Assembly: GCF_900220965.1 (NCBI RefSeq)
Contig: NZ_OBQC01000013.1
Span: 1-64,000, forward strand
DNA: 64,000 nucleotides
Reading direction: 5' to 3'
DNA from: Ureibacillus acetophenoni
Lineage (GTDB): Bacteria > Bacillota > Bacilli > Bacillales_A > Planococcaceae
Part shown: piece after piece, positions 26,834 to 59,200 of the stretch
How positions within the stretch are numbered: the stretch's first letter is position 1
Layout: each line of letters opens with the position of its first letter
Position numbers and translations under genes: made by a program
The notes under the pieces: model-generated
Seen by the model: the letters and a program-made list of their open reading frames with translations, nothing else
What the model was told of the DNA's origin: nothing
Database searches by the model: none

Positions 26834-27300
26834 ACGAGACATTTTCTGGTGATTTACCGAGAGTTGTCTCGTAATGTTGCTATTTAGACAGGTTTTCGGA
26901 ATTTGAATGTATGTTGGCTAAATAACGCTGTTTATTAGACACTTTCATGAAAAATTACTGAAAGTTGGCTAGATAACCTAGTATTCTCGACACTTATTCT
27001 TAAATACAATAAAAAATGTCTAGATAAGGCTGTTTATTAGACATTTTTTAGTAGAAACAACGAAAGTTGGCAAAATACTGTTGTTTATTTGACAATTATC
27101 CGGAAAATCATTAAAAGTTGGCAAAATTAGACCTTTTATTAGACACTTTTTCGGAAATTCACTGATATTTGTCCTGTAAAATTCAAATACGAGACACTTT
27201 AACTGAAAATCACCGATTTCTGTCTCGTAAAAGCAGTTTACGAGACACTTTTACAATGAAGCACTGATTCCTGTCTCGAAGGATTTGATTTTCTTGACAC
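26834..27300. repeat. Degenerate tandem array, 51-bp period, about 10 units
   Basis: The anchor nnnnGACAnTTT recurs at 26834, 26883, 26934, 26985, 27036, 27087, 27138, 27189, 27240 and 27292. Seven of the nine steps are exactly 51 bases; the first is 49 and the last 52. Late units carry TGTCTCGTAAA and TTACGAGACA, which are inverted repeats able to form hairpins. Middle units drift to TTGGCTAGATAA and ATTAGACA. No coding frame runs through it. It fills the 554-base gap between the hydrolase and the next gene. Confidence 0.85.
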
Positions 27301-36630: not shown

Positions 36631-36660
36631 TATATAATGAAATAACGTGACAATTCATTA

Positions 36661-37052
36661 GATATCTGAGGAATTCTATCCCATAAAATCAAGTTACGAG
36701 ACACTTTATCAGAAATCTCGGGAATTCTGTCCCGTAAAATCAAGTTACGAGACACTTTATCAGAAATCTCGGGAATTCTGTCCCGTAAAATCAAGTTACG
36801 AGACACTTTATCGGAAATCTCGGGAATTCTGTCCCGTAAAATCAAGTTACGAGACACTTTATCAGGAATCTCCGGAATTCTGTCCCGTAAAACCAAGTTA
36901 CGAGACACTTTATCAGAAATCTCGGGAATTCTGTCCCGTAAAATCAAGTTACGAGACACTTTATCAGGATTCTCGGGAATTTTGTCCCGTAAAATCAAGT
37001 TACGAGACTCCTTACTAGGAAACTCAGAAATACCGACACTTAAAATTAAACA
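36661..37052. repeat. Tandem array, exact 51-bp period, seven units
   Basis: ACGAGACAC (or a near variant) recurs at 36696, 36747, 36798, 36849, 36900, 36951 and 37002, always 51 bases apart. Units are about 90% alike in the middle and decay at both ends. Within each unit, TGTCCCGTAA and TTACGAGACA are near-complements around AATCAAG, so each can fold as a hairpin. Because 51 is divisible by three, a long minus-strand frame stays open, but it has no plausible start or ribosome site. Confidence 0.92.
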
Positions 37053-52366: not shown

Positions 52367-52678
52367 TAACAATACCCCCTTTATTAAATAATACCAATAT
52401 CAATGATTATTTTGTTTCGTAAAAAAGTAGTAGAAAAAAGCCATCCATTTGAAATGAACGACCTACGTTTTTCTTTATCTTTCGGAGTACGAGAGCCCCC
52501 AATATTGTGCTAGGTGTACTTTACAATTCTTTTTTACATTTGACCATTAAAAAATTAATGGATGGCTTATTTATGCAAACAATTTTACATTGGATAAATC
52601 CCTTAATCCACTTTCTTGCTTTGAAAACTTAATCACAACCGCCACAATTATTCTCAAGCGTAATAAAAATTATATTTA

Positions 52679-52721
52679 GGTGTAATTTCCTATTGCATTA
52701 CACCGTAATTTTATTTACTAT
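52679..52721 (+). promoter_or_regulatory. Promoter and dyad upstream of the HTH/F1-beta chimera
   Basis: TTGCAT (52693-52698) and TACTAT (52716-52721) are 17 bases apart. GGTGTAAT (52679-52686) and ATTACACC (52697-52704) form a perfect 8-bp inverted repeat with a 10-base spacer that overlaps the -35. It is a good candidate site for autoregulation by the downstream HTH protein. The rest of the 52367-52746 gap shows no gene. Confidence 0.6.
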
Positions 52722-52746
52722 TTAAAGTAAGTAAAGGAGGGAAGTT

Positions 52747-53799
52747 ATGGAAAATGTGGATGATTTAAGGTTAAATGTCAGTTTGTTAAGAAGGAGAGTA
52801 CCTAATTTAACAAGTGCAGCCCGGCAAGTAGGTTTGCGACCAGCTACTGTTTCAAATCTGTGCACAGGAAAAATTCCTGTTGGGAGAGCTGAGGTTCGAA
52901 CATTAGTTGCACTTGCGTCATTAGCCGATTGTAGTTTAGATGATTTGATTATCAGAGGGGAGAAAATCGAAATGATCGAAACGAAAATTAAGACGTTGGA
53001 TTTATTTGCACCTTTAGCAAAAGGTGGCACTATCGGTTTAGTTGCACGTCCTGGAATGGGGCAACTTGTTGTTTTATCTGAATTACTCTATCGCCTGAAA
53101 AATGAAGCCTATAAAACGATTCTTTTAATGCCTGAAGGTGAACACCAAGGAATTAGTGATATTGTTGAAAATGTTGAAATTATTACAAAGACTGTTGATG
53201 AAACATATGAGCAGATTGCCGCTATTGGTGGAGACCAAGATATTTTATTCGTGGCGGACAGAACTCACGTGATTACAGGTGATATCCAGCAATTGCAAGA
53301 GAAATTACTTGGAATTGGTATTCACTCTGTTACAACTTTCCTTGTAGATTTAACAGGCGACGTAGTTGATGAAGATTTACCTTATGGACCACTTGAAACT
53401 ATATGGCAATTTGACGCAGATCTTGCAGCAAGACATCGTTTTCCAGCAGTTAACCCTCTGAGCTCGACATCATCTGTTTTAGAAGGTGCACATATCGATC
53501 AAGAACACTTCACAGTTCAACAAAAAGCAATAAAAGTACTACGCCGTTATCGTGAACTCCGCGCATTAGTAAATGTACGAGGAATTGAAAGAATTCCTGC
53601 TTCTGAGTTACAAACCTATATAAGAGGCGAACGACTAGAAGCTTATTTAACCCAACCTTTCTATGTTGCTGAACCTTATACAAAAAAAACTGGTGAATCT
53701 GTTAGTCTTCAAGATACAATAAAAGATGTTCAAGAAATATTAAACGGAGCTGTAGATTCTAAAGAAATTTCAGAACTTGAATATATAGGAAAAATTTAA
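52747..53799 (+). CDS. HTH domain fused to a degenerate F1-ATPase beta-like domain
   Basis: A 350-residue chimera. Residues 8-72 are a Cro/Xre-like helix-turn-helix (TSAARQVGLRPATVSNLC). From residue 78 it follows the F1-ATPase beta subunit: ETKIKTLDLFAPLAKGG, Walker B-like DILFVAD (Asp171), FPAVNPLSSTSSVL (232-245), RYRELRALVNVRGI and LTQPFYVAEPYT (301-312). The N-terminal beta barrel is gone. The P-loop GXXXXGKT has become ARPGMGQL (100-107), losing the Lys and Thr needed for catalysis. Glu132 of the GER motif remains. It may bind nucleotide without hydrolysis, or bind none, and act as a regulator. AAAGGAGG precedes the ATG. Confidence 0.85.
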   Translation: MENVDDLRLNVSLLRRRVPNLTSAARQVGLRPATVSNLCTGKIPVGRAEVRTLVALASLADCSLDDLIIRGEKIEMIETKIKTLDLFAPLAKGGTIGLVARPGMGQLVVLSELLYRLKNEAYKTILLMPEGEHQGISDIVENVEIITKTVDETYEQIAAIGGDQDILFVADRTHVITGDIQQLQEKLLGIGIHSVTTFLVDLTGDVVDEDLPYGPLETIWQFDADLAARHRFPAVNPLSSTSSVLEGAHIDQEHFTVQQKAIKVLRRYRELRALVNVRGIERIPASELQTYIRGERLEAYLTQPFYVAEPYTKKTGESVSLQDTIKDVQEILNGAVDSKEISELEYIGKI

Positions 53800-53806
53800 T
53801 TATTTA

Positions 53807-53837
53807 AAAGAGCATTAACCCATCTCGGTTAATGCTC
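53807..53837. terminator. Terminator shared by two convergent genes
   Basis: GAGCATTAACC and GGTTAATGCTC are perfect 11-bp arms with a 6-base loop. On the minus strand TTTT follows. The Nudix stop codon lies inside the right arm. Confidence 0.85.
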
Positions 53838-54233
53838 TCGATTTATTAAAGACTGGATATTTAAAGCCACTACTCTAGGTCTAACATCAATTGAATTTAA
53901 AGTGTCAATATTCACCCACATAGGCAAATAAGTTCCACGTTCTCTCTCTTTATCTATAAACTCTTCACCTTGTCCAGTTCCGAATGTTCCTCCGATAATA
54001 TTTGCTAAGAAATAGGATTGAGTTCCGTTAAATTGTACTTTTGCAAAACATTCATGGATCTCTACTTGTACCCCTAATTCCTCATATGCTTCACGTTTTG
54101 CTGCGTCTTCTGGTGTTTCCCCACTTTCGATTCCTCCACCAGGAAAAACGTAATAAACACTCGCCTCTCTAATTCTTTTAATAAGTGCAACCTGTTTATT
54201 TTCTATAATTACTACCGAACTTCTGTGTCTCAT
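53829..54233 (-). CDS. Nudix hydrolase
   Basis: A 134-residue Nudix protein. The Nudix box is complete (GGGIESGETPEDAAKREA, continued by YEELGVQV). The substrate is unknown. It lacks extra domains. AGGGTGTGG lies before the ATG. Its stop codon sits within the stem of the terminator it shares with the convergent HTH/F1-beta gene. The 54234-54442 stretch upstream has no gene. Confidence 0.9.
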   Translation of the reverse strand: MRHRSSVVIIENKQVALIKRIREASVYYVFPGGGIESGETPEDAAKREAYEELGVQVEIHECFAKVQFNGTQSYFLANIIGGTFGTGQGEEFIDKERERGTYLPMWVNIDTLNSIDVRPRVVALNIQSLINREH

Positions 54234-58769: not shown

Positions 58770-59200
58770 TACTGGGAATTTAAGGATGGTCATCCGGTTA
58801 TTAGTGGAATGCTGCTCGTTTCGGGGGCAGATAAATGGAGATTTTACTGTTATCGGCAGAATCCTGCTCGTTTCTGGAGTAAATAAGGGGAGATTTTACT
58901 CTTATTGATGTAATCCTGCTCGCTCCGGGGGCAGATAAGCGGAGATTTTACCCTTATTGATGTAATTCTGCTCGCTTCAGGGGCAAATAAGCGGAGGTTT
59001 TACCCTTATTGAGGCAATATTGCTCGCTCCGAGGACAGATAAGATGATTTTTTACCCTTATTGAGGCAATCATGCTTGCTACAGTTGCAGATAAGCGGAA
59101 TTTTCACCCTTATTGATGTAATCCAGCTTGCTCCAGGGGCAAATAAGCGGAGGTTTTCCGGTTTTCTATGTCTTACGAGCTGATTACCGGAAACTCTCCG
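58770..59200. repeat. Tandem array, exact 52-bp period, seven or eight units
   Basis: The anchor before TGCTCG occurs at 58803, 58855, 58907, 58959, 59011, 59063 and 59115, always 52 bases apart, with a decayed unit after it. Each unit holds GGGGCAGATAAGCGGAG and TTTTACCCTTATTGATG in order. It fills most of the 588-base gap 58668-59255 between the Snf2 and acyl-CoA carboxylase genes. No coding frame fits, since 52 is not a multiple of three. Confidence 0.92.

Follow-up and report, generated by a model that had tools for sequence, protein, structure and literature searches.

A conserved family of Bacilli proteins joining a Cro/C1-type helix-turn-helix to a shortened, catalytically degenerate F1-ATPase beta domain

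Main finding

The open reading frame at positions 52747..53799 of the window, i.e., the whole 64,000-nucleotide stretch of DNA analysed here, is predicted to encode a 350-residue protein in which a Cro/C1-type helix-turn-helix (HTH) is followed by a shortened F1-ATPase beta-like domain (this and the parts of the gene and its promoter given below lie on the forward strand). By its sequence it belongs to a conserved family of HTH proteins with a shortened, catalytically dead F1-beta part. An array of operator-like palindromes in the gene's own promoter is a new addition of this analysis. Together these features suggest a one-component autorepressor whose F1-beta-derived domain would oligomerise on the array, possibly tuned by an adenine ligand, a reading that we consider probable while leaving considerable room for others. 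Old enzyme domains frequently serve as parts of one-component regulators, but we know of none built on the catalytic subunit of rotary ATP synthase. If the reading is confirmed, a copy of an essential and very conserved motor part has lost its catalysis and taken on a new role, and the gene, its operator array and a single-gene reporter would make a directly testable system.

A helix-turn-helix in place of the beta-barrel

The reading frame is intact and is preceded by a ribosome-binding site, read off the sequence (AAAGGAGGG, 52733..52741). Residues 9-69 (52771..52953) match the Cro/C1-type profile HTH_26 (PF13443; E 8.5e-5, 23.2 bits, above the cut-off of 22), an HTH match at E <=1e-3 is found in 14 of the 26 members of set A1, and the predicted model shows five helices in this region, with pLDDT mostly 65-87. 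The remainder, residues 72-350 (52960..53796), is delimited as a shortened F1-beta-like domain by sequence profiles and weak models. As originally predicted, this C-terminal part is a relative of F1 beta, matching the NCBIfam model TIGR01039 (atpD) at 2.4e-34 and 118.9 bits, short of the equivalog cut-off of 462.85 bits, and F1 beta in the PDB at 2.4e-29. For residues 72-350, 58 F1-type beta subunits stand among the best 60 of 85 PDB matches (1.5e-39 to 1.7e-29), followed by V-type A at 1e-9. Assignment to a different RecA-like family was considered and rejected, V-type A, FliI, SctN and Rho scoring far lower, and the profile search that had been proposed as a check thus leaves F1 beta with the best score. 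The predicted protein models, of low confidence (pLDDT 64.8 and 62.7; pTM 0.44 and 0.51), also find F1 beta as a relative.

Alignment with the AtpD of the same genome places the HTH, and no beta-barrel, in residues 1-71, which bears out the replacement of the barrel by a Cro-like HTH. This genome also has a normal, intact AtpD, 30% identical to the protein over residues 179-340, and the regulator gene is located outside the atp operon. The gene is followed by a terminator-like hairpin with a 12-bp stem (53809..53838; -17.7 kcal/mol, z -5.8), and a strict rule, which misses the window's own hairpin, places such a hairpin no more than 110 bp past the stop codon in 40 of the 58 distinct copies; the gene is therefore probably often transcribed alone.

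Family-wide loss of catalytic residues and a largely retained adenine pocket

Residue counts were made on 72 full proteins aligned with the AtpD of the window's genome, leaving out L039, L074, L075, L128, L129 and L130, which are fragments or have no HTH in frame; L076, which ends at a contig end, is counted in the 73 unique proteins and excluded from the 72. The degenerate P-loop ARPGMGQL (residues 100-107, 53044..53067) has Gln-Leu where GKT would be expected, in agreement with the original prediction, and its MGQ recurs in 73/73 unique proteins. The Lys position is Gln in 72/72, the Thr position is Leu in 60, Val in 11 and Phe in 1, and GxxxxGK(T/S) is absent. A survey of homologues, likewise proposed at the outset, yielded none with an intact P-loop among the 73 unique proteins, and since Gln stands for the P-loop Lys in 72/72, the dead P-loop is a trait of the family and not decay. 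The Arg of the beta STSR motif is replaced by Ser (58 of 72) or Thr (14) and is never present. The glutamate of the GER motif had been thought to be kept, and this did not hold: the aligned position, E130, is Glu in only 37/72, an Arg follows it in 2/72, and the GER motif is thus missing (the E130 stretch falls outside the HMM alignments shown against the PDB).

Other parts of the site are better conserved. The Walker-B-like strand DILFVAD (residues 165-171, 53239..53259) ends in D171, which is Asp in 70/72 proteins and Asn in 2. The adenine-pocket aromatics are kept in the window protein, as had been claimed for F232 and Y311: F232 (53440..53442), which aligns with the beta Tyr of YPAVDPL, is Tyr in 54 and Phe in 18 of the 72 proteins; F305 (53659..53661), the Phe of QPF, is Phe in 67 and Leu in 5; and Y311 (53677..53679) is Phe in 46, Tyr in 17, Trp in 1, Val in 5 and Leu in 3. 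Two blocks of the F1 beta C-terminal domain, RYREL and QPFxVAE, are also kept, and about 50-60 residues are deleted around Walker B, in the stretch that links it to the P-loop helix and directly behind it. The supposed loss of the DELSEED segment is half right, in that the acidic motif has been replaced but the segment itself is not deleted, ERIPASE (residues 281-287, 53587..53607) aligning ungapped with the genome's own AtpD.

Read against the known roles in F1 of the P-loop, Walker-B, GER, STSR, YPAV and QPF residues, these sequences indicate that catalysis is lost family-wide and that most of the adenine-pocket wall remains. Because the Walker-B Asp and the aromatic pocket are retained, an adenine ligand would be permitted; an adenine-containing ligand may occupy the old pocket, and ligand sensing by the F1-beta-derived domain is plausible. 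Nucleotide binding and ATP/ADP sensing, as had been proposed, may occur, but the phosphate-binding Lys/Thr, the STSR Arg and GER are lost.

Patchy distribution under purifying selection

The family is patchy over Bacilli. One scan of genome contigs gave 34 loci, in Bacillus-like genera, Oceanobacillus, Lysinibacillus, Sporosarcina, Bhargavaea, Gottfriedia and others. With the window's own genome always counted, carriers amount to 2/25 genomes in the genus, 56/261 genomes and 8/19 genera in the GTDB family (the order-level search covers the same 261 genomes), 19/398 genomes and 16/145 genera in the class sample, and 3/398 genomes in the phylum sample. The closest named copy is that of Ureibacillus manganicus (L029, 93%), while a Paenibacillus copy (H1, 55%) is carried by a replicon of 0.9 Mb and, as the one annotated copy examined, is called a hypothetical protein; the family has no name in the copies of Pfam and NCBIfam searched.

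Ratios of dN/dS of 0.03-0.11 in 11 homologue pairs (0.063 for the window's gene against L005) indicate purifying selection. With the hydrolysis residues gone and selection maintained, the sequences fit the non-hydrolysing F1-beta relative fused to a DNA-binding head that had been proposed. A decaying duplicate of atpD that gained an HTH by chance would explain the broken P-loop, and broken or cut copies do occur (L039, L074, L075 and L130, variously a fragment, without HTH in frame, at a contig end or with an inner stop), but the dN/dS values and the presence of MGQ in all unique proteins over many genera led us to reject this scenario, which the conserved promoter array also opposes and which we regard as scarcely credible.

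An operator-like array over the promoter

Upstream of the gene lie three to four 16-bp palindromes of the form TTAC-N8-GTAA, in steps of 22-23 bp. In the window these are S1 (TTATTCTCAAGCGTAA, 52648..52663), S2 (TTATATTTAGGTGTAA, 52670..52685) and S3 (TTGCATTACACCGTAA, 52693..52708), each with 7/8 consensus bases, and S4 (TTACTATTTAAAGTAA, 52715..52730), with 8/8. The original prediction had pointed to a dyad at 52679-52704; it exists, but consists of the halves of S2 and S3 that face each other, is confined to the window and is absent in the sister L005. S3 contains a putative -35 (TTGCAT, 52693-52698) and S4 a putative -10 (TACTAT, 52716-52721), 17 bp apart. Since S3 starts with TTG in 45/47 cases, S4 and S2 being mostly TTA, S3 is read as also serving as the -35, so that S3 and S4 would overlap the -35 and -10 of a promoter with a 17-bp spacer. 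This putative promoter is absent from the output of a consensus promoter scan (3 + 4 of 12 consensus positions by eye).

The array is conserved well beyond the window. Among 59 promoters examined, 52 could be anchored by a site of 7-8/8 near the start codon, and three or more in-register sites occur in 50 of the 52, as against at most 2/52 in 200 shuffles; in 35 promoters a spacing of 22 bp was seen 39 times, where shuffling gave 0.58 on average and 3 at most, the shuffles in both comparisons keeping base composition only. In a kinship-reduced set of 15 promoters (proteins <75% identical), the threshold was reached at period 22 in 11/15, at period 23 in 11/15 and at period 21 in 7/15, with 0-1/15 at every other period from 14 to 33. 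The outermost register, S1, is present in 23/52 anchored promoters, 66-67 bp from S4. Seven promoters have no anchor: good sites stand at the outer positions in L010, L033 and L032, those of L038 and L073 are weaker, and L091 and L076 show no site in register; in these last two, where the array is missing, the gene closely follows another gene. Further class-level rows show an array (>=3 or 2 sites) in 10/12, the exceptions being L117, with no site, and L121, with a single good site; the arrays of L121 and L127 are incomplete.

The conservation of this operator array in front of the gene makes autoregulation likely. How the protein would bind the array, oligomerise there and repress, and what part any ligand would take, is inferred as follows. 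The N-terminal Cro/C1 HTH would bind the 16-bp palindromes over the gene's own promoter; the protein would occlude the -35 and -10 and so repress its own gene; the F1-beta-derived domain, having lost hydrolysis and the rotor-contact motif, would have been retained for oligomerisation, through which several dimers would bind the array together; and a ligand containing adenine, seated in the former adenine pocket, would possibly tune the oligomer. If the sole target of such an autorepressor is itself, however, repression alone gives no explained benefit. A more ambitious variant, to which we give limited credence, makes the dead F1 beta an energy- or adenine-sensing module: a homo-oligomer, forming an arc or ring like the hexamers of F1, FliI and Rho, would place three to four HTH dimers on operators separated by about two turns of the helix, and a bound adenine ligand would change its shape. 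If that were true, a piece of ATP synthase would report the energy of the cell to transcription.

Search for further targets

The exact double palindrome occurs in the window's own genome a single time, at the gene's own promoter. Over 20 genomes, a relaxed scan for pairs (<=2 mismatches, fixed 6-bp spacer) found 171 matches to the forward pattern and 305 to its reverse, used as control, and hence no excess; the forward count was the higher one in 3/20 genomes, including the window's own, G000 (14 vs 11). A second array is nonetheless still conceivable, because the fixed spacer misses even own promoters whose sites are spaced by 21 or 23 bp and because the matches listed include non-own pairs with 1 mismatch (e.g., in G073, G657, G660 and G662). 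Strict single sites in 16 genomes likewise showed no excess (27 forward vs 44 control). The 27 comprise 10 own promoters and 17 others, all of which were read: one recurs in both sister species, 28 bp behind a ResC/CcsB-like ORF assigned by eye (L150, G000:C16:46155; L151, G010:C15:36388), and in G073 a strict site lies 44 bp before a peroxiredoxin-like ORF. Upstream of the genome's own atp operon, between 77567 and 78448, there is no site of at least 7/8.

That no recurrent second operator site emerged from these target scans would suit a decoy or inhibitor subunit of the host ATP synthase or of another ring ATPase, its HTH only limiting its own level, and so would the retention of much of the beta C-terminal domain (RYREL, QPFxVAE). 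We nevertheless judge such a role improbable, as the protein has no beta-barrel crown, which F1 assembly requires, and carries another sequence in place of the DELSEED motif, the gene lies outside the atp operon and the host's own AtpD is intact.

Genomic neighbourhood and probable transfer

Clustering of 49 loci revealed no neighbour common to all clades. A Caa3_CtaG gene (cytochrome oxidase assembly) adjoins the regulator in two clades, in different arrangements, at 6 + 3 of the 49 loci (L016, L017, L020, L021, L025, L027 and L081, L083, L088), and represents a possible link to respiration, drawn post hoc from neighbours assigned by clustering with a Pfam check on one copy per clade. This adjacency, the strict site behind the ResC-like ORF in both sister species, and the conserved aromatic pocket and Walker-B Asp would all be compatible with an adenine-nucleotide-responsive global or respiratory regulator, in which ATP, ADP, AMP or another adenine compound would alter DNA binding and whose further targets would carry single or degenerate sites missed by the scans. 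Such a regulator seems unlikely to us given the loss of phosphate-binding and catalytic residues in 72/72, the strict sites that stay below their control in the 16 genomes, the lack of a site of at least 7/8 upstream of the own atp operon and the post hoc nature of the neighbour links. Two distant copies, L007 and L038, have the same ORF family directly downstream (acetamidase/formamidase-like by eye).

Across genera, alignment is limited to the array and the gene (window 52643-53799 and similar). The left flank of the sister L133 is unrelated, and its contig ends 45 bp past the homology; another contig, L168, opens with the hairpin seen here and runs on into the helicase-like gene that lies downstream in the window. 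The sister's right-hand neighbour is thus probably the same as the window's, and a mobile-cassette reading was dropped on this account. The tree places two g18 genomes (L069, L070) within the g12 copies (SH-aLRT 97) and apart from the other g18, which makes some transfer between genera likely. A phage origin was rejected, as 25 viral stretches matched a pattern and none encoded a relative; in the phage collection, the 19 matches all lie from query residue 73 onwards and leave the HTH uncovered. Among the best 20 of 110 plasmid records, 5 have at least 80% query cover and H1, from Paenibacillus, is the sole match into the HTH.

Patchy presence (2/25 in the genus), the position of the two g18 copies and the varying neighbours between genera would be expected of a selfish or mobile self-regulating gene of little use to its host. 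This we think very unlikely, for no transposase, phage or viral relative was found, the best 20 of 110 plasmid records yield a single plasmid/chromid case, purifying selection is strong, and the sister's right-hand neighbour is probably shared.

Comparison with known systems

With F1-ATPase beta (AtpD; TIGR01039, PF00006, PF22919) the protein shares sequence and probably fold in the nucleotide-binding and C-terminal parts, including the adenine-pocket aromatics and the RYREL, STS and QPFxVAE blocks. Unlike F1 beta, it lacks the beta-barrel and GER, has Gln for the P-loop Lys, Ser or Thr for the STSR Arg, a replaced DELSEED and about 50-60 residues fewer around Walker B, has gained an HTH, and is encoded outside the atp operon. 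With Cro/C1 (XRE) one-component regulators (PF13443 HTH_26) it shares the N-terminal HTH and, as far as the sequence indicates, palindromic operators over its own promoter, differing from them in that its effector part is an F1-beta remnant. The G1-ATPase beta/MMOB1670 of Mycoplasma, MSC_0618 and the alternate F1 beta (NCBIfam) are also beta relatives outside the standard ATP synthase; in contrast, these paralogue models represent full-length ATPase subunits, and they score 102-105 bits here vs 118.9 for atpD. To our knowledge none of these paralogues carries an HTH, nor are we aware of any architecture of an HTH with an F1-beta remnant; a literature search, at the level of search results, found none.

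Tandem repeats

The window also contains tandem arrays with 51-52-bp units at 26913-27254, 36645-37008 (7.1 copies at 93%) and 58798-59157 (6.9 copies). An 81-bp tandem array rich in TCGCAA(G/A)TAAA lies right after atpC, behind the atp operon of the same genome (L131 9894-10999, G000:C25).
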